Positions 9,972-38,795 of a stretch of DNA of 40,875 nt are shown here, piece after piece (within the stretch, counting starts at the first letter, position 1; each line of letters opens with the position of its first letter). The translations under genes and the position numbers were made by a program. The notes under the pieces are model-generated. The model saw nothing but the letters and a program-made list of their open reading frames with translations, made no database searches and had not been told where the DNA came from. The stretch comes from a virus, in IMG/VR virus record IMGVR_UViG_3300022885_000041, positions 1-40,875 of that record; one strand, 5' to 3'.

Positions 9972-12170
9972 ATGAAAAAAACAAAAGATCTAGAACCAGA
10001 AGAAAAAGTTAAAATATATAATCCTGATAAGGATGAGAAAAAGCTGCAGTCCTTTGTTAAAAAACGAAAGGATGCTATGCAAGCTTATCGTGCTAGCTTA
10101 GGTGTTGAAAAAGACTGGAAAGAAGCTGATTCTGAATACATACCTCACGAATTAGAACTAGGTACAACTAAAAAAAGATTTGAACAAGACCAAGATACAG
10201 GACTACGTTCTCGAATGGTTCCTATTGGAGATCAAACACAAAACTGGAGGAGTAATAACTCTTCACCTTCTCTGTTGGTTAAAATCCAAACAGCTTTTTC
10301 TGTATTGATTGAAAATGATCCAGAAGGAATGCTTACTGAGCTTTCTAAAAAGTATGAAGCTAATACTCAAATTGCTTATGCACTGTGGAAAAGAAACTGG
10401 GCTGTTACCGACTCGAAGCAAGTGCTACGCCTTTTCATTTTTGACCTACTAAAATACGGATGGGCAGTTGGAAGATCGTTTCCTAAGAAGATTGCTTACA
10501 AAAAAGACATACTTACTGAGTACGATTCTGCAGATCCAAAAAATAATGTTTATGAAACCAAGGAGCTTGTTTGGTTTAACGACGTTGCTAAAGAAAGAAT
10601 GTCTCCATACAAAACATGGATAGACGAACAAACAAAACCTTACAACACGTACTCAACAAATGATTGTTACTACGAGATGGACTATTCTTACGACGAAGCT
10701 GAAGTAGAGTTTGGACAATACGAAAATTTTAAATACATTAAAAGAAACTCTAAGGTCTCATACGACTTTGAAAAGAATGGGCAAAAAGAAGACGGGGATG
10801 TTTCAGCTGAACGTTCGGACATTGTAACTATTGGATTCTACGAAAATAGACTTAAAGATACTTACGTTATTGTAGTTCCTATAGGAGATATAGTTCTACA
10901 CAAATGCCCACTTCCTAATGATGATGGATATCTTTCTCTATGGCACACACCATGGATTCTTCGTAGTTCAGATAGCCCTTACGGTATCTCAATCTGGAAG
11001 ATCATTAAACAAGATAAAGCATTGTACGACAAAATGGACAATATGACGTCTGACCAGTTGGTACTTTCTATTATGAAGTTCGGATTTCATACAGGTACAT
11101 CAGGAGTACTTGGAGATGGAGTTATTAAAATCGTTCCAGGGCAGTCACAACAAATTACAAATGGTAAGTTTGATTGGATGGAAATTCCTGGTCCCGGAGC
11201 TGAAGCTTGGAAAGGATTAGATTATAGACAGAGCCGTATTGACGGAAGCTCTGGTATTTCACCAACACTAGAAGGTGAAATTACAGGAAAGACTCTTGGT
11301 GAAGTGCAGCTTGCTAGAGAGGCTTCACTAAAACGACTAAAGGTTCCATTAGATAACATCGCATGGGCTATCGAACAAGACGCATACGTTACACTATCGT
11401 GGATGAAACAAATCTACTCAACTCCAGAAGTAAAAGAGTTCGGTAACGAATCTGAAATGATTGCTTTTGAAAAAGAAAATCAAATCGAACGTAATGAATT
11501 ATTTTCTAAAAACAACGAAGAGACAGGAGAGCAAGAAGGTGTAACAGCAACGTATCTACCCGAGCTTTCACTTAAGCTAGACGAAGAAGACGGTAAACTA
11601 TTTGAGTCTGATAAGAATAAATATTTCCAAATAGGATCAGGAATCTCTATTGATCAACTTAACTGGAAGGGAATCTTTAAAGTTATCCCTCGATCAATCC
11701 TTGATAAGTCTGAAACTATTATGAAGCAAATGAAGACGGAAATGGCAAACATGCTTATTCCACTATTACAGCAACCACCTGAACTTGTAATGAAGTCAGC
11801 AATTCAATTATGTAAAGTAAATGAAGAGGATCCAAAAGATTGGCTACCTGACGCATGGTTCCAACCTCCCGCACCTCCAGCACCTCCAGCACCTGAGCAA
11901 CCAAAAATAAGTGTAAGTGTTAAAGCAGATGCTAATACAGATGTTGGACAAGCTCTCTTGAAAGACACAAGAGTTATTGACCAGGAACAAGAAACACCAG
12001 CACCAGAAATTCAAGACACGACTAACCAAACAGGAGCAAAAGAAGGCCACACAATGCAAGGTAATACTGGAAACACAAAACAGTTGTCACCTACAGTGGT
12101 TCCACGTGAACAAATTAGCGCACCAACTGGGAAAAATCTATTAGGAGGATTATTCGTTGATAAGAAATAA
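9972..12170 (+). CDS. Portal protein
   Basis: 732 residues directly downstream of the large terminase and upstream of the scaffold and capsid genes, the standard portal position. The length fits the long portal group. Internal segments typical of portals include a charged helical region with LAREASLKRLKVPLDNIAWA around residues 440-460 (long helix of the stem/wing) and GISPTLEGEITGKT just before it. The C-terminal 150 residues are Pro-rich (PPAPPAPPAPEQP) and low-complexity, probably flexible and inside the capsid. It forms the ring at the packaging vertex. Call by synteny, size and pattern. Confidence 0.8.
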   Translation: MKKTKDLEPEEKVKIYNPDKDEKKLQSFVKKRKDAMQAYRASLGVEKDWKEADSEYIPHELELGTTKKRFEQDQDTGLRSRMVPIGDQTQNWRSNNSSPSLLVKIQTAFSVLIENDPEGMLTELSKKYEANTQIAYALWKRNWAVTDSKQVLRLFIFDLLKYGWAVGRSFPKKIAYKKDILTEYDSADPKNNVYETKELVWFNDVAKERMSPYKTWIDEQTKPYNTYSTNDCYYEMDYSYDEAEVEFGQYENFKYIKRNSKVSYDFEKNGQKEDGDVSAERSDIVTIGFYENRLKDTYVIVVPIGDIVLHKCPLPNDDGYLSLWHTPWILRSSDSPYGISIWKIIKQDKALYDKMDNMTSDQLVLSIMKFGFHTGTSGVLGDGVIKIVPGQSQQITNGKFDWMEIPGPGAEAWKGLDYRQSRIDGSSGISPTLEGEITGKTLGEVQLAREASLKRLKVPLDNIAWAIEQDAYVTLSWMKQIYSTPEVKEFGNESEMIAFEKENQIERNELFSKNNEETGEQEGVTATYLPELSLKLDEEDGKLFESDKNKYFQIGSGISIDQLNWKGIFKVIPRSILDKSETIMKQMKTEMANMLIPLLQQPPELVMKSAIQLCKVNEEDPKDWLPDAWFQPPAPPAPPAPEQPKISVSVKADANTDVGQALLKDTRVIDQEQETPAPEIQDTTNQTGAKEGHTMQGNTGNTKQLSPTVVPREQISAPTGKNLLGGLFVDKK

Positions 12171-14567: not shown

Positions 14568-14589
14568 AAAGTTTGTCAATTTATTAGTT

Positions 14590-14722
14590 AAACTGCGATT
14601 ACTGGGGAGAGCTGTATAGCTCTTGCTTGAAAGGTTTTACGTCGCAGTTTTACCTCTATAGTGAGAGTTACACAGCCCTTCCCAGTAAAGGGCTGTTTTT
14701 AATTCCCGCTCTCTCCAGCGGG
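14590..14722 (+). ncRNA. Structured intergenic RNA upstream of the scaffold gene (attenuator-like)
   Basis: Elements in order: stem P1, AAACTGCGA (14590-14598) with TCGCAGTTT (14642-14650); inside it a hairpin AGAGCT-GTAT-AGCTCT (14608-14623); an intrinsic terminator (14672-14700); and a further hairpin CCCGCT/AGCGGG (14705-14722) 23 nt before the scaffold ATG at 14746. The segment TTACTGGG (14599-14606), in the P1 loop, is perfectly complementary to CCCAGTAA (14681-14688), the terminator loop plus one stem base. This permits a pseudoknot or an alternative antiterminator fold. Confidence 0.7.
14672..14700 (+). terminator. Rho-independent terminator before the scaffold gene
   Basis: Stem ACAGCCCTT (14672-14680) with AAGGGCTGT (14688-14696), loop CCCAGTA, followed by a run of U's starting at 14696. 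It lies inside the head operon, so partial readthrough or regulated readthrough must feed the scaffold and capsid genes unless another promoter lies downstream. Confidence 0.75.
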
Positions 14723-14745
14723 TAACAAAAGGGAGTAAAAAAATT

Positions 14746-15597
14746 ATGGAAACAGAAAATAATAACGAGGAAGTAAAAGACTTTGTTGATACAGTAAAAA
14801 TTGATCCTTCAAAGGACGATGAGCTAGTCGATGAAGATGAGAGCGAAACTCACGAGGATTCTTCTACTCAAGAAAACGATACTGATGATAATCCAGATGA
14901 AGAAGATGAAGACGAATCAGAGGAGTCTGAAGAAGACACCGAAGATGAAGACGAAGATTCTACAGAAGAGGATGAAGATCATCAGGAAGAAGAGACAAAA
15001 AAAGATGAACCAAAACCAGTTGAAGGTGAGACACCAAGAGAACGCGCATTGCGTCTAGAGACTACGAGGCTAAAAGCTCTCTTACGAAAAGAACGACAAG
15101 ACGAATTGTTTGTAAGTAAGAAATCAAAGAAAGATGATTCAGACGACGAGCTGTCAGGATATGATCCAGATGAGTTAAAGCGTTTTGAGCAAATAGCTAC
15201 AAAGATGGGGTTTGCAAAGAAAGACGAAATTGCATCGGATAAAAACAATAGCGAATTCGATTCTTTCCTTGAAGCACATCCAGAGTATCTTCCAGAAAAC
15301 GATTCAGACGGTGTTCTATGGGACCAGTTTAAATCAGAGTTTAACCTCTATGTTGCACCTTCAGATCCCAAGTCTTTGAAAAAAGTACTTAACAAGGTTC
15401 ATAAAGAAATTTTTGGAACTCAACCACAAAAAAACCTTAATAAAATTAATGCTTCACGTGAAAAGATAAAAGTCGCTTCTCACACCGGAGCATCAGCTGA
15501 AAAAACTCCTAAAGTAAAAAAATCAGTAAATCATGATCTACGCATAGATGCGATGAAAGGGTTTACAGATGAAGAGAAAGAGGAATTATTTAGCTGA
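14746..15597 (+). CDS. Scaffolding protein (acidic, head assembly)
   Basis: 283 residues. Residues 1-95 are extremely acidic (Asp/Glu runs such as EDEDESEESEEDTEDEDEDS), then a Lys/Arg-rich helical zone (RERALRLETTRLKALLRKER), a middle folded-looking region to about 230, and a C-terminal basic-to-mixed tail ending FTDEEKEELFS. Placement just before the cement-like and major capsid genes, and this composition, are typical of phage scaffolds. It probably templates procapsid assembly. A frame in another phase inside it (14831-15058) is a shadow caused by the biased composition. Confidence 0.7.
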   Translation: METENNNEEVKDFVDTVKIDPSKDDELVDEDESETHEDSSTQENDTDDNPDEEDEDESEESEEDTEDEDEDSTEEDEDHQEEETKKDEPKPVEGETPRERALRLETTRLKALLRKERQDELFVSKKSKKDDSDDELSGYDPDELKRFEQIATKMGFAKKDEIASDKNNSEFDSFLEAHPEYLPENDSDGVLWDQFKSEFNLYVAPSDPKSLKKVLNKVHKEIFGTQPQKNLNKINASREKIKVASHTGASAEKTPKVKKSVNHDLRIDAMKGFTDEEKEELFS

Positions 15598-25466: not shown

Positions 25467-26944
25467 TGGATAACATATTCAACGTATTAAATAGAGACCT
25501 GTACAAGATAAGTCCTGAAGAGGCTTACAGTACGTCTAATCCTATTCCTCCAAGCGCCGTAGGGTCTGGAGCTTCTGTTGATCAGAAGAATCAATACGTT
25601 GGAGCATTAATCAGTGGAAAGCAAGATTTCTCTAACAGTGTTTCTGGATACATACTTGGTGTTGACGAAGGTGTTCCTAAATTTTATATTGGGGATACTT
25701 CTAATTATCTTAACTGGACAGGTACAGAACTTATTGTTTCAGGAAACATTAGTGCCACAACTGGAACCATTGGAGGGTTTACTATTGCGGCTGACGCGCT
25801 TTATGCAGGTTCAGGTTCTTCAAGAATCCAACTTGATACTACGTCAGGGATTCATTTAGGTGCAACTTCGTTTGGTTCAGCTCCTTTCAGTGTAAGCCTT
25901 ACCGGATCTTTAGTTGCAACAAGTGCTACAATCAACGGAACAATTAGAACATCTTCTAGCTCTACACGGGTAGAATTAAACGCAGCAGCAAATGCGCTCT
26001 ATGTTTACGATAGTGGGGTCATCAGACTTGCTTTGTCAGATACTGGTATATTTTTCAATACAGTTTCTGGAGCATCGTCAGGTTCATTAAACGGTTTTGG
26101 GACAAACGACGTTGTGTTAACTGTTGCTTCATCTTCTTTGGTGTACCACTTTAATACAAGTTATTTTTATGCAGACGGTTCCTCTGAACCAGATCTAGGA
26201 ACCAATAGCGACAGGTGGGAAAGACTATATGTAAATTCAATATCACTTAATGGTGATGTTGAGTCATCGTGGCCAGAAGAATTTTCAGGAGATTGGTCTG
26301 ACATCTCTATCGACACCAATAAATCTTTCAGTTCTTACAGTATCTCAGGGCTTGGTACAGTAGAGTCTGTTTTTGGGGATTTTAATATTCTTACAGCTAC
26401 AACATATTTTGAGACAAATGATATCTATGCTGAATCAGGTTCAACTATTGAAGTTCATGATCATTTAGATCTCGGGTCTAGGGATATTGACTGTGGAGAT
26501 ATAGTTGCTTCAACTCTCTCAGCTGGATCTGGAACAATAAGAGCTGGTGGATATCATTATTTTAATTCAGGGAATAATAACGTATATATATATTCAACAG
26601 GTAGCAATCTTAGTTTTAAGGATTCAACTGGTACATATGCTTCAATAGGAGCTATAAAATCAGCAATCGTTCCAACATCTGAGGGACATAATGCACTGTA
26701 TTGTATAGAATCTCCGGAAGTTTGGTTTATGGACTTCTGTGAAAATAAAGACAGTGTAGATACTTTATTTCTTCAGGTGACAGTTGCCCCGTATAAGTTC
26801 ATTCAGTGTGATGATGGTACATATCAAATCTGGGGGAAAAGAAAAGGGCATGAAGAAAAAAGGTTTGAGAATAAGACAGAAGATGAATTTATGGCGAACG
26901 AAAGGTTTTTAAATATGAACAAGCCGAACAATTCAGTTTATTAG
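25466..26944 (+). CDS. Tail fibre/tail-associated protein with conserved C-terminal module
   Basis: 492 residues. Middle: fibre-like strands VSGNISATTGTIGGFTIAAD, SGIHLGATSFG and similar, as in shaft proteins with repeated beta turns. The last 95 residues differ in composition and look like a separate module containing LYCIESPEVWFMDFC, YQIWGKRKGHEEKRF and NERFLNMN. This C-terminal module reminds me of sequences in metagenomic and Patescibacteria-associated genomes and could be an attachment or chaperone domain; the comparison is untested. It overlaps the preceding stop by one nt. A short frame inside (25614-25859) is a shadow. Confidence 0.55.
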   Translation: MDNIFNVLNRDLYKISPEEAYSTSNPIPPSAVGSGASVDQKNQYVGALISGKQDFSNSVSGYILGVDEGVPKFYIGDTSNYLNWTGTELIVSGNISATTGTIGGFTIAADALYAGSGSSRIQLDTTSGIHLGATSFGSAPFSVSLTGSLVATSATINGTIRTSSSSTRVELNAAANALYVYDSGVIRLALSDTGIFFNTVSGASSGSLNGFGTNDVVLTVASSSLVYHFNTSYFYADGSSEPDLGTNSDRWERLYVNSISLNGDVESSWPEEFSGDWSDISIDTNKSFSSYSISGLGTVESVFGDFNILTATTYFETNDIYAESGSTIEVHDHLDLGSRDIDCGDIVASTLSAGSGTIRAGGYHYFNSGNNNVYIYSTGSNLSFKDSTGTYASIGAIKSAIVPTSEGHNALYCIESPEVWFMDFCENKDSVDTLFLQVTVAPYKFIQCDDGTYQIWGKRKGHEEKRFENKTEDEFMANERFLNMNKPNNSVY

Positions 26945-26951
26945 TAAATAA

Positions 26952-26960
26952 TGGTATAAT
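26952..26960 (+). promoter_or_regulatory. Extended -10 promoter upstream of the PG-binding protein
   Basis: TGGTATAAT, -10 at 26955-26960; expected start about 26967, leaving a 3-nt leader before the ATG at 26970. Confidence 0.5.
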
Positions 26961-26969
26961 ATAAGTAAT

Positions 26970-27929
26970 ATGGCGATAACACAACAATTAAAAGTAGGCT
27001 CTCGAGGAAAACAAGTAGAAGAACTTCAAAGAAAAATTGGAGTAAAAGTTGATGGAATCTTCGGTCCAAAAACTCAAGCTGCTGTAAGAGCATATCAGTC
27101 AAGGCAAAACATTGCGGCTGATGGTATTGTGGGACCAATAACTCGAGGAAAGCTTTCAGGAGGTTCTAATTCTGATCGCAAGCCTTCTCGAAACCGCACA
27201 CCAGAACCTAGTAGAAATACAGTAGTTGTTAATGGTCAGTCTTATCAAACACAAAATGAAGAGGATGCTAACTTTATGAACAATGCTATTGTTCCTTACT
27301 TAAACCAACTGCAAAATCAGGGCCTAGCTGTTAAACCAGACATGGATCTTACAGCTGATGTTATTGCTCAAATACTTGATAAAGCAAAAGAAACAGTTGC
27401 TCCTGAGTACGCTCAACAAATAGATGCATTAAAAGAAGACACTTTAAGAAATGCTAACCTAACTATCGATGATTATAACTCACGTATTGCAAGCACTGAA
27501 GCAAGCTTCGGGCGTAACTTAGAAAACTCTAGAGAACGAAACGCAGGATCAGGTACAACGTTCAGCGGTGTAAGAGGCGCTCAAGAACAGGACGCACTTG
27601 CTGAACAGAACAGAAACCTTTCTTCGTTGTCTTCAGCTGCTGGAAATAGTCTTGGTGATTATTCTCGCAACCTTGAAAAGAACTTAGGTACAGACGGAGC
27701 AGCAGGATTTAATCTACCTTCTCTAAATAACTATTCAGCTTCACTGGCAGGCAAGGGAGGATTTGCACAGTCAGGTCAGGCGGATACAAATTACACACCG
27801 GGAACTTATCAGCTAGGGAGTATTCCACAAGCTCAAGAAGCTGCTGGATTAGCATTGCGAAACCAAAACGTTCAAGAAGCGTCAAAGCGTAAAGCTAAAG
27901 GAATTTCATACTCAGATTTATATAATTAA
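26970..27929 (+). CDS. Virion protein with N-terminal peptidoglycan-binding domain
   Basis: 319 residues. Residues about 6-62 are a PG_binding_1 domain: LKVGSRGKQVEELQRKIG, VDGIFGPKTQAAVRAYQ and ADGIVGPITRGKL show its two GxFGPxT repeats. The rest is long, hydrophilic and helical with Asn/Gln-rich segments (DDYNSRIASTEASFGRNL) and a C-terminal KRKAKGISYSDLYN. No catalytic domain is seen, so it may anchor the virion tip to peptidoglycan during entry. It has its own leaderless-type promoter and forms a pair with the LysM gene downstream. Confidence 0.75.
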   Translation: MAITQQLKVGSRGKQVEELQRKIGVKVDGIFGPKTQAAVRAYQSRQNIAADGIVGPITRGKLSGGSNSDRKPSRNRTPEPSRNTVVVNGQSYQTQNEEDANFMNNAIVPYLNQLQNQGLAVKPDMDLTADVIAQILDKAKETVAPEYAQQIDALKEDTLRNANLTIDDYNSRIASTEASFGRNLENSRERNAGSGTTFSGVRGAQEQDALAEQNRNLSSLSSAAGNSLGDYSRNLEKNLGTDGAAGFNLPSLNNYSASLAGKGGFAQSGQADTNYTPGTYQLGSIPQAQEAAGLALRNQNVQEASKRKAKGISYSDLYN

Positions 27930-36913: not shown

Positions 36914-37000
36914 ATGTGTCTTTTTGGTAAGTTTCTTTGCATACTTGCCATTGTTATAACAGTCGGTGCACTTTCATGGCTGTTTAGAGGGTATAAATGA
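36914..37000 (+). CDS. 28-residue membrane peptide next to the holin
   Basis: MCLFGKFLCILAIVITVGAL followed by SWLFRGYK: 28 residues, one membrane segment with a positively charged end, translated from an ATG 1 nt after the holin stop. Tiny membrane peptides beside holins can act as antiholins or spanin-like partners. Its stop overlaps the beginning of the structured RNA region. Short length limits confidence, but the composition is far from random. Confidence 0.5.
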   Translation: MCLFGKFLCILAIVITVGALSWLFRGYK

Positions 37001-37008
37001 TTGTTTGA

Positions 37009-37265
37009 TATTAGAATATGTAATGTCTATAGATACCGCAAGCCTTAATGGTGTAATCGGCTTAGAGGAGTATAACCTTATATAGCCAAGCCGTAAGTTG
37101 CGGTTACCTGTAGATATTGTGTATCCTAATACCAGACTGTCATTTGATTGTTTGAGTCGGAGCAGGTGAGTAGTATCTAGCCGATGACTATAGGGGGTTT
37201 GAATCCTGTAAGAGTGGCGATAGTCTGATACAAGATTATCTAAGTTATAGTCGCTCCGACCCAGA
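37009..37265 (+). ncRNA. Two-domain structured RNA between holin and lysozyme genes
   Basis: Gene-free 37001-37315. Domain 1: arms 37009-37041 and 37098-37131 pair over 33 positions with five G-U pairs (plus-strand sense), two A-C mismatches and one bulge; the loop contains CGGCTT/AAGCCG (37058-37063 with 37088-37093) and a smaller hairpin. Domain 2: GTCGGAGC/GCTCCGAC (37156-37163 with 37253-37260) extended outwards to 37151 and 37265. Inside, GACTATA (37186-37192) can pair either with ATAGTC (37220-37225) or with TATAGTC (37246-37252), a switch-like arrangement. The RNA leads into the lysozyme gene at 37316. A frame on the opposite strand (36974-37306) is rejected as a gene. Confidence 0.7.
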
Positions 37266-37315
37266 CCATCAGTAACGGAAGTAACGGATTGTTTTAGAGA
37301 GCACAACTCTAATTT

Positions 37316-37711
37316 ATGAATAAAATCATAAGAACAGTAATACTCGCTTTACTATTTATAGCAGTATTACTTACATATAAAGTCGCCAGAGCTGAGCACA
37401 TTATTGACTGTAACGCTAGCTATGACATTAAGACTTTTGCAAAATGTAAAGTCACTGAGAAGTGGGATTCTAGTCAATGGAGTGCTTTTGAATACATAAT
37501 TGAAAGAGAAAGTGGATGGGATTATCAAGCTAAAAATCCAACCTCTAGTGCAACAGGTTTAGCTCAGACAATGATGTCTTTGCATGAAACACCAGATGAT
37601 TTTTTAACCAACCCTAGAAGCCAGATTTTATGGGCTATAAATTACATTTCTGAAAGATACGAAAATCCTAAAAAAACAAAAGTTTATTGGAACGCTAACA
37701 AACACTACTAA
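37316..37711 (+). CDS. Secreted SLT-type lysozyme (lytic transglycosylase-like endolysin)
   Basis: 131 residues. Signal sequence: MNKIIRTVILALLFIAVLLT with ARA cleavage-type residues at 24-26. The mature part has YIIERESGWDYQAKNPTSSA then TGLAQTMMS: the catalytic Glu is probably E65 in ERESGW and GLAQ matches the SLT GLxQ element. C32 and C44 could form a disulfide. It should cut the glycan backbone and be exported by the host secretion system, so holin timing may work through activation rather than release. It sits downstream of the structured RNA leader. The SLT-type call is good; transglycosylase versus hydrolase cannot be decided. Confidence 0.75.
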   Translation: MNKIIRTVILALLFIAVLLTYKVARAEHIIDCNASYDIKTFAKCKVTEKWDSSQWSAFEYIIERESGWDYQAKNPTSSATGLAQTMMSLHETPDDFLTNPRSQILWAINYISERYENPKKTKVYWNANKHY

Positions 37712-37712
37712 T

Positions 37713-37835
37713 ATGAACATCACACAAGAACAACTAGACATAGCAAAAGCAAAGCAACAAAAAGATGCTTATGAAGCAGAAAACATGCCAGTAGACCCAG
37801 ATGACTCAGCCAATGTTTGCATCGGTTGTGAATAG
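37713..37835 (+). CDS. Small acidic protein with terminal CxxC
   Basis: 40 residues, MNITQEQLDIAKAKQQKDAY onwards, ending in NVCIGCE with a CxxC pair three residues from the end. It begins 1 nt after the lysozyme stop, so is probably translated with it. Unknown function; a redox or metal contact through the CxxC is possible. It is very short and could also be spurious, but its start, stop and codon pattern agree with the gene packing. Confidence 0.45.
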   Translation: MNITQEQLDIAKAKQQKDAYEAENMPVDPDDSANVCIGCE

Positions 37836-37844
37836 TTGTATAAT
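37836..37844 (+). promoter_or_regulatory. Promoter for the 37851 small RNA
   Basis: TATAAT at 37839-37844 preceded by TTG. A 7-nt step puts the start at 37851, exactly the first base of the first RNA stem. Confidence 0.6.
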
Positions 37845-37850
37845 ATAAAT

Positions 37851-37975
37851 CCTACACCTTAGTTTAGTCACTAAGTTATCCCGTAGGAACAAAATGAAAA
37901 CGGTCTAAGAGATTAGGCAAAAACGTACCTGTGATGGAGTACAATGTGGAAAAGCTACGGTGACGTGGCTTTTTC
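37851..37975 (+). ncRNA. Small structured RNA with own promoter and terminator
   Basis: About 125 nt. Stem 1: CCTAC (37851-37855) with GTAGG (37883-37887), enclosing a second stem CTTAGT/ACTAAG (37858-37863 with 37870-37875). Stem 2: GTCTAA-GAGA-TTAGGC (37903-37918), a GNRA-type tetraloop on six pairs with one G-U. Then a region with GTAC repeats (37925-37942), and a 12-bp terminator with GUGA tetraloop (37948-37975). Promoter, compact stems and terminator together make an independent phage sRNA likely. No ORF of note. Class unknown. Confidence 0.75.
37948..37975 (+). terminator. Intrinsic terminator of the small RNA
   Basis: GGAAAAGCTACG (37948-37959) pairs with CGTGGCTTTTTC (37964-37975) including G-U pairs; the loop is GTGA. 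The descending arm contains five U's. The next promoter starts directly after it. Confidence 0.75.
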
Positions 37976-37977
37976 TA

Positions 37978-37986
37978 TGTTATAAT
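37978..37986 (+). promoter_or_regulatory. Extended -10 promoter for the long structured leader
   Basis: TGTTATAAT, -10 at 37981-37986, immediately after the terminator of the preceding RNA; start expected near 37993. Confidence 0.55.
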
Positions 37987-37992
37987 AATTAT

Positions 37993-38303
37993 ATAAGGTT
38001 TATTGATGGGGGTGTGTCGCGAGGGAAAGAGGGTTATAATCCTGCACAGAGTAACGTTCCTGTGAGCTAGTGTGAGTGAAAATCTCAACACTCCACCATC
38101 AGTAAATCTAATAATACTTTGAATGTAGAAGTGGCGGACAGTGAGCCGTGTAAATAGAACATGCGGAAACCCCTAGTAAGAAACTACTAGCACGCCCAGA
38201 TATGTTGAAATCGTGTGGTAAAAAAAAGACATAACTGTTCCACATCTGCAAGTCAAACCTTGTCTCCTACATTCAGAGTATTAACACACCTTAACAACTA
38301 AAT
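37993..38303 (+). ncRNA. About 310-nt multi-domain structured leader RNA
   Basis: Domain A (38004-38101): TGATGG.GG.GTGT pairs with the ACACTCCACCATCA side over 12 Watson-Crick pairs with two mismatches; inside are AGGGT/AATCCT-type and CACAG/CTGTG (38045-38049 with 38060-38064) hairpins. Domain B (38113-38282): closing stem of 16 pairs, AATACTTTGAATGTAG (38113-38128) with 38267-38282, one G-U. Inside it are a perfect hairpin CTAGTA-AGAAAC-TACTAG (38173-38190) within AACAT/ATGTT (38158-38162 with 38202-38206), and TGTGG/CCACA (38214-38218 with 38240-38244). It ends 21 nt before the ATG at 38304. It may be a leader or a separate RNA. No known RNA class was recognised. Confidence 0.65.
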
Positions 38304-38504
38304 ATGGAACATGAACCAAGTGACTCTACACTTACCAAGATTGATGCCTACATACTTCGTTCTTTAGAACTTGAAACTGACTTAAAACACAGCGAACTTG
38401 AGAAAAGAATAAAAGCACGATATGGCTTTGATATTGACGTTAAAGAAAGGTTGAAAGAATACACACCTCGTAATGATGATAATAACTTTATATTTTGGAA
38501 CTAA
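38304..38504 (+). CDS. Hypothetical small protein (66 aa) behind the structured leader
   Basis: 66 residues, helical and charged: MEHEPSDSTLTKIDAYILRS, then KHSELEKRIKARYGFDIDVKE, ending DDNNFIFWN. The middle looks like a compact helix-turn-helix-sized domain but there is no firm pattern. It overlaps the next gene by one nt (TAATG). Translation follows the 310-nt structured leader, so it may be tightly controlled. Function unknown. Confidence 0.6.
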   Translation: MEHEPSDSTLTKIDAYILRSLELETDLKHSELEKRIKARYGFDIDVKERLKEYTPRNDDNNFIFWN

Positions 38505-38641
38505 TGAAAGCTGAAACACTACATAAAATTATTACTTATCTTATTGATAAGCCACACGTTTTAATGCTGATTTGCTTTATCTGCTTTTGCATTTATTTAA
38601 TTATTCTTGCAATCAGACTTAACAGGTCGGAAAACAGATAA
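38504..38641 (+). CDS. Small single-pass membrane protein (45 aa)
   Basis: 45 residues: MKAETLHKIITYLIDKPHVL, then the membrane segment LICFICFCIYLIILAI (about 21-37), then RLNRSENR. Three cysteines lie in the membrane segment. It begins inside the stop codon of the preceding gene. Possible envelope-targeted or lysis-modulating peptide; no family recognised. It is followed by the third structured RNA segment and a terminator. Confidence 0.55.
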   Translation: MKAETLHKIITYLIDKPHVLMLICFICFCIYLIILAIRLNRSENR

Positions 38642-38795
38642 GAGTAGCTTCACTAATAAAAAGGAGGTAATTTTAATCTACGGAGTGCTAATCCCTCTCC
38701 ACACACAATCGCCAAGGGCAACGCTACCTATGGCATCAATCCCCTGTGGGTGAACACAGGAAAACCCCTAGTCTAATTTAGACTGGGGGTTTGTT
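38642..38795 (+). ncRNA. Structured 3' region of the late transcript, ending in a terminator
   Basis: Gene-free stretch. It contains an isolated GGAGGT (38663-38668), a consensus anti-16S sequence, with no start codon at useful distance; a hairpin CCTGTG-GGTGAA-CACAGG (38743-38760); and the terminator 38762-38792. The 11-mer AAACCCCTAGT occurs both here (38762-38772) and in domain B of the leader (38167-38177). No small ORF is convincing. It may be a 3' UTR or a processed RNA. Confidence 0.5.
38762..38792. terminator. Bidirectional terminator closing the late block
   Basis: AAACCCC-T-AGTCTA (38762-38775) pairs with 38779-38792 over 14 positions including one T-G pair; the loop is 3 nt. There are short T tracts on both strands, and it lies between converging transcription units (late genes from the left, minus-strand genes from the right). 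Confidence 0.7.

Follow-up and report, generated by a model that had tools for sequence, protein, structure and literature searches.

Does the DNA directly behind the lysis genes of this phage encode a small RNA of its own, and if so, what carries the case for it? The window, that is, the whole stretch of DNA analysed, is the 40,875-base IMG/VR virus record IMGVR_UViG_3300022885_000041 (positions 1 to 40,875). Its late genes occupy the + strand from ~8 kb to 38.6 kb, with the lysis genes last, and the candidate RNA follows directly on a 40-residue ORF at the end of this group. An earlier note had proposed a dedicated small RNA here from the fit of promoter, fold and terminator. The relevant features are as follows:

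37316-37711, + strand: SLT-domain lytic transglycosylase (lysis gene), upstream of the candidate
37713-37835, + strand: 40-aa ORF between the SLT gene and the candidate
37816-37844, + strand: putative promoter, TTTGCA - 17 nt - TATAAT
37836-37848, + strand: promoter core TTGTATAATATAA, a copy of the phage late-promoter motif TGGTATAATAT(AA)
37851-37975, + strand: candidate non-coding RNA, ~120-125 nt long, with its 5' end predicted at 37851 or close by
37851-37887, + strand: predicted 5' hairpin (outer stem CCUAC/GUAGG, inner stem CUUAGU/ACUAAG), not above shuffled sequence
37888-37902, + strand: predicted single-stranded A-rich linker AACAAAAUGAAAACG, a possible pairing or binding site
37903-37918, + strand: predicted hairpin GUCUAA-GAGA-UUAGGC
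37948-37975, + strand: intrinsic terminator (12-bp stem, GUGA loop, U-run), ending at 37975
37981-37986, + strand: next TATAAT, right behind the terminator

The start of transcription anticipated in the earlier note agrees with this layout, as the TATAAT at 37839-37844 lies six bases ahead of 37851, where the CCUAC/GUAGG stem begins. The note also described two hairpins with GNRA loops followed by a terminator. Both the GAGA and the GUGA loop are present, but the GUGA loop belongs to the terminator hairpin itself and not to a separate element; a third hairpin, between the GAGA hairpin and the terminator, is weak. The statement that the segment has no ORF stands, the longest start-to-stop reading being four codons (MKTV* at 37895).

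The promoter is a copy, with one mismatch, of a motif that is used repeatedly by the phage. Exact TGGTATAATAT occurs four times in the window, each copy 6-11 nt ahead of a same-strand (+) ATG, and the genes concerned are those at 9972, 26970, 35200 and 36718. Because the TATAAT is only 6-11 nt from the ATG, the late mRNAs of these four genes should be leaderless or nearly so; gene starts in the window are AT-rich and show no clear Shine-Dalgarno sites. With at most one mismatch, TGGTATAATAT has six matches (1.2 expected), every one on the + strand, and the candidate is among them as TTGTATAATAT. The same tolerance gives nine matches for GTATAATATAA, against 1.5 expected and a number reached in no shuffle. 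A weight matrix built from the four exact TGGTATAATAT promoters was used to score ~82,000 positions: the candidate promoter ranks sixth at 16.8 bits, just below the exact copies, the following site scores 12.0 bits, and the TATAAT at 37981 is the eighth best site in the window.

The single mismatch in the candidate promoter affects the G of its extended -10, and the -35 reads only TTTGCA. The strength of the promoter is uncertain because the mismatch falls on that G. A defective extended -10 and a weak -35 could also mean that AT-rich sequence happens to resemble a promoter and a terminator here and that no transcript is made, all the more as promoter look-alikes are frequent in this DNA (10 found in 2 kb, 6.8 expected). 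We consider such a coincidence very unlikely: at the sequence level the candidate promoter is above chance, in that it matches the phage's own repeated motif and goes beyond a generic consensus.

Promoter and terminator are also arranged with respect to each other in a way that is matched by only 2 of 100 shuffled gaps. A promoter-plus-terminator scan, confined to non-coding gaps and using a stem-matching terminator rule, returns the candidate as the sole unit in the window, and the final scan likewise finds no other there. Read in this way, the segment 37839-37975 (+ strand) is a real promoter-RNA-terminator unit as far as its sequence indicates. Of the features by which sRNA genes are recognized from sequence, the candidate has its own promoter, its own intrinsic terminator and no protein-coding capacity; a stable or conserved fold is not found (body z -0.42, no homologues).

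This value for the body comes from comparison with shuffled sequences. Folding is better than that of the shuffles when the terminator is included (z -2.3) and indistinguishable from them when it is left out, with 61 of 200 shuffles folding equally well. The compact stems of the earlier note can be drawn, but apart from the terminator they do not exceed chance. The body of the candidate folds like shuffled sequence, and its two hairpins therefore do not argue for a functional fold; the folding model lends no support to a compact one.

Four non-coding elements within 1.3 kb flank the candidate and are strongly folded:

37001-37145: element A, z -7.5
37141-37300: element B, z -3.1
37986-38110: element D, z -3.3
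38108-38290: element E, z -4.5

These elements have long closing stems and are placed between the small genes of the lysis region. Rfam has no match to them, and searches with models of B and E returned no homologues. By the folding model they are stronger candidates for structured RNA than 37851-37975. Their strong folding and proximity raise the question of whether the candidate is one piece of a larger structured tract whose parts work or are processed together. We give this very little credence: the terminator ending at 37975 and the new promoter at 37981, which would place a transcription start at the foot of element D, cut the candidate off from D and E, and the SLT gene lies between it and A and B. 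GOLLD and ROOL are large, conserved structured phage RNAs of 600-800 nt. The candidate shares with them a non-coding RNA in a phage late region, but not their size and conservation, and the Rfam search finds neither of them in the window.

Several other sequence features of the window and of related contigs were observed alongside these elements. An unlisted 28-residue hydrophobic ORF at 36914-37000 (MCLFGKFLCILAIVITVGALSWLFRGYK), between the 36718 gene and element A, is possibly a small membrane lysis peptide. The best fold in the window (z about -7) belongs to a structured non-coding segment at 14575-14720 with a terminator-like hairpin just ahead of the gene at 14746. Attenuator-like pairing would be possible there between an upstream ACUGGGGAG and CUUCCCAGU, which lies in the loop and arm of the terminator. 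A small hairpin containing AGTGCTAATC(C/G)CTCT is common to the window (38677-38700) and to the related contig G086 (L243, 3883-3909). It lies in both just before the final late-region terminator, with a compensatory change (GGAG/CUCC versus GCAG/CUGC), and its sequence alone is not above the blast control. Very strong folds in non-coding DNA also occur at 25530-26037 of G052 (L127 5530-6037; z -10) and at 26461-27121 of G046 (L125 6461-7121; z -11), the latter with repeated inverted repeats of the GGTGGTAGATGAA type.

Homology searches place the candidate in no known family. The earlier note had called the class of the RNA unknown, which holds in the sense that Rfam 15 gives no family at or above the gathering threshold in the window, and below-threshold matches in the region are at chance level. 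ARAGORN reports no tRNA or tmRNA at default settings, and relaxed settings yield low-score noise only, so a tRNA or tmRNA origin was rejected. Scans of IMG/VR for exact 25-mers and 17-mers gave no match beyond 25 unrelated ones with dissimilar flanks, and blastn of the candidate against phage and plasmid records gave none. Protein searches for syntenic relatives from the SLT and neighbouring genes returned nothing useful. Pairing between the candidate and the phage's own gene starts is at chance (40 of 120 shuffles equally good), and no antisense target was found among those starts.

Searches with terminase, portal and capsid led to the lineage and yielded about 40 contigs. The relatives have their structural gene order in common and diverge toward the late end; one contig (G006), at first sight related over its whole genome, has only the terminase in common. 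Neither blastn nor a covariance model finds a homologue of the candidate across the lineage contigs. The covariance model matches the candidate itself and, at an E-value of 0.42, one unit in the contig G028. We do not count this second match as homology because A-rich sequence and the terminator account for most of it.

What recurs among the relatives is the layout. Of 13 gaps after lysis genes, counted with the window and across the ~40 lineage contigs, five contain a promoter, a 60-120 nt RNA and a terminator, whereas shuffled gaps contain a mean of 0.32 such units and a maximum of 2. A sixth gap, in G072, carries the exact TGGTATAATAT motif but falls below the promoter threshold of the scan and is therefore outside this count. 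Besides the candidate, the units are:

G028 (locus L114): perfect TTGACA-17-TATAAT, 119-121 nt, terminator; 26 bases behind an Amidase_2 endolysin
G041: 112 nt; preceded by an M23 endolysin and a probable holin ORF of 69 aa
G064: 107 nt; behind an SLT gene
G074: 63 nt; preceded by a peptidoglycan-binding protein and a probable holin ORF of 107 aa
G072: exact TGGTATAATATAA motif, 58-nt hairpin RNA, terminator; at the late-operon end, before a convergent nuclease gene

G072 retains counterparts of the 36718 gene, at 36% identity, and of the 39681 nuclease, at 31%. At the same locus of G028, L114:13546-14607 holds an OrfB_IS605/TnpB-like gene, after which, at 14708-14871, a direct repeat of 36 nt occurs three times with spacers of 28 nt, resembling a mini CRISPR array.

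Such units occur in 30 of 338 longer gap-strands of all these genomes (about 9%), so the excess behind lysis genes is about fourfold. Leaving out the window and G028, the two that suggested the pattern, reduces the count to 3 of 11 gaps and the enrichment to a weak one. On this evidence from sequence, an enrichment of units behind lysis genes is suggestive, not proven.

The six RNAs have no common sequence. Since promoter and terminator alone recur, the sequence is not conserved even in the nearest relatives, and the body is not structured beyond chance, the unit might instead serve as an insulator: the terminator would close the late operon and block convergent transcription, the promoter copy would top up or relay transcription, and the RNA would be a functionless by-product. 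This account is doubtful. A terminator does not need a promoter 100 nt upstream, the next downstream gene is co-directional in both the window and G041, so that convergence is not general, and the relatives' units are similar in length (107-119 nt in four of six).

The lambda 6S RNA, or late-promoter leader, is ended by tR'; it precedes the late genes and is subject to read-through. The candidate resembles it in having a late promoter, a short RNA and an intrinsic terminator, and might by analogy be an attenuated leader on which transcription stops until a factor permits read-through. The order of promoter, leader and terminator would fit, and small same-strand ORFs at 38304-38504 and 38495-38641 could be the genes served. 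Such a role is improbable, as a second promoter, the TATAAT at 37981, comes right after the terminator. Unlike the lambda leader, the candidate stands at the end of the late genes. In two relatives there would also be nothing to read into, the next annotated ORFs in G028 being convergent and a convergent gene lying directly next to the unit in G072.

The reading that we prefer, with a probability of about one in two, is that the candidate is an independently transcribed late small RNA of the phage that acts in trans. Its sequence-level support consists of promoter-motif reuse, the terminator, the absence of an ORF and the same-layout units in relatives. An independent transcription unit is well supported because a late-promoter copy, a terminator and the lack of an ORF coincide at a place where units of the same layout lie behind relatives' lysis genes. 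This much of the dedicated small RNA of the earlier note stands, but the compact functional fold on which it also relied does not. We infer with good confidence from its sequence that the candidate is transcribed; it may also accumulate as an RNA and have a role in trans. Host RNA polymerase, perhaps aided by a phage factor, would start at ~37851 from the late-promoter copy and produce a transcript of ~120-125 nt ending at the intrinsic terminator. Given its own late-promoter copy and self-termination, the RNA would accumulate in time with lysis and tail gene expression. Late in infection it could act through its unpaired A-rich linkers on a host RNA or an RNA-binding protein. It would occupy a slot behind the lysis genes in which related phages carry other short RNAs.

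A broader proposal, which we rate as rather unlikely on present evidence, is that this lineage reserves the post-lysis position for short RNAs transcribed on their own. These would be replaced fast, with only promoter, terminator and size persisting, and would parallel, at the RNA level, the 'moron' genes of phages. Such replacement is perhaps driven by an arms race with the host.

Phage-encoded sRNAs are an established kind, and the candidate appears sRNA-gene-like in layout while belonging to no known family. One described example is svsR, which lies at the 3' end of a prophage cI gene and restricts infection by phages (PMC12803456). A closer parallel is offered by PasA/C/D, the Pas sRNAs of Shiga-toxin prophages: PasA/C adjoin a holin/lysozyme operon, and sequence variants are common (PMC13192938). 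They share with the candidate a short phage-encoded RNA, an intrinsic terminator and the neighbourhood of lysis genes. No sequence relation is seen, as the candidate has no Rfam match, including to Rfam sRNAs near Pas loci. The Pas RNAs also have mapped targets and a conserved fold (PMC13192938). For the candidate, a host search via genome contigs gave no match.

That one late-promoter motif recurs with hardly any leader between it and the gene provides a simple rule for locating transcription starts in these genomes. If the candidate is transcribed, this phage lineage, for which no cultured member was found, would gain a late small RNA, and the region behind the lysis genes would be a place to seek fast-evolving phage RNAs that homology searches miss.
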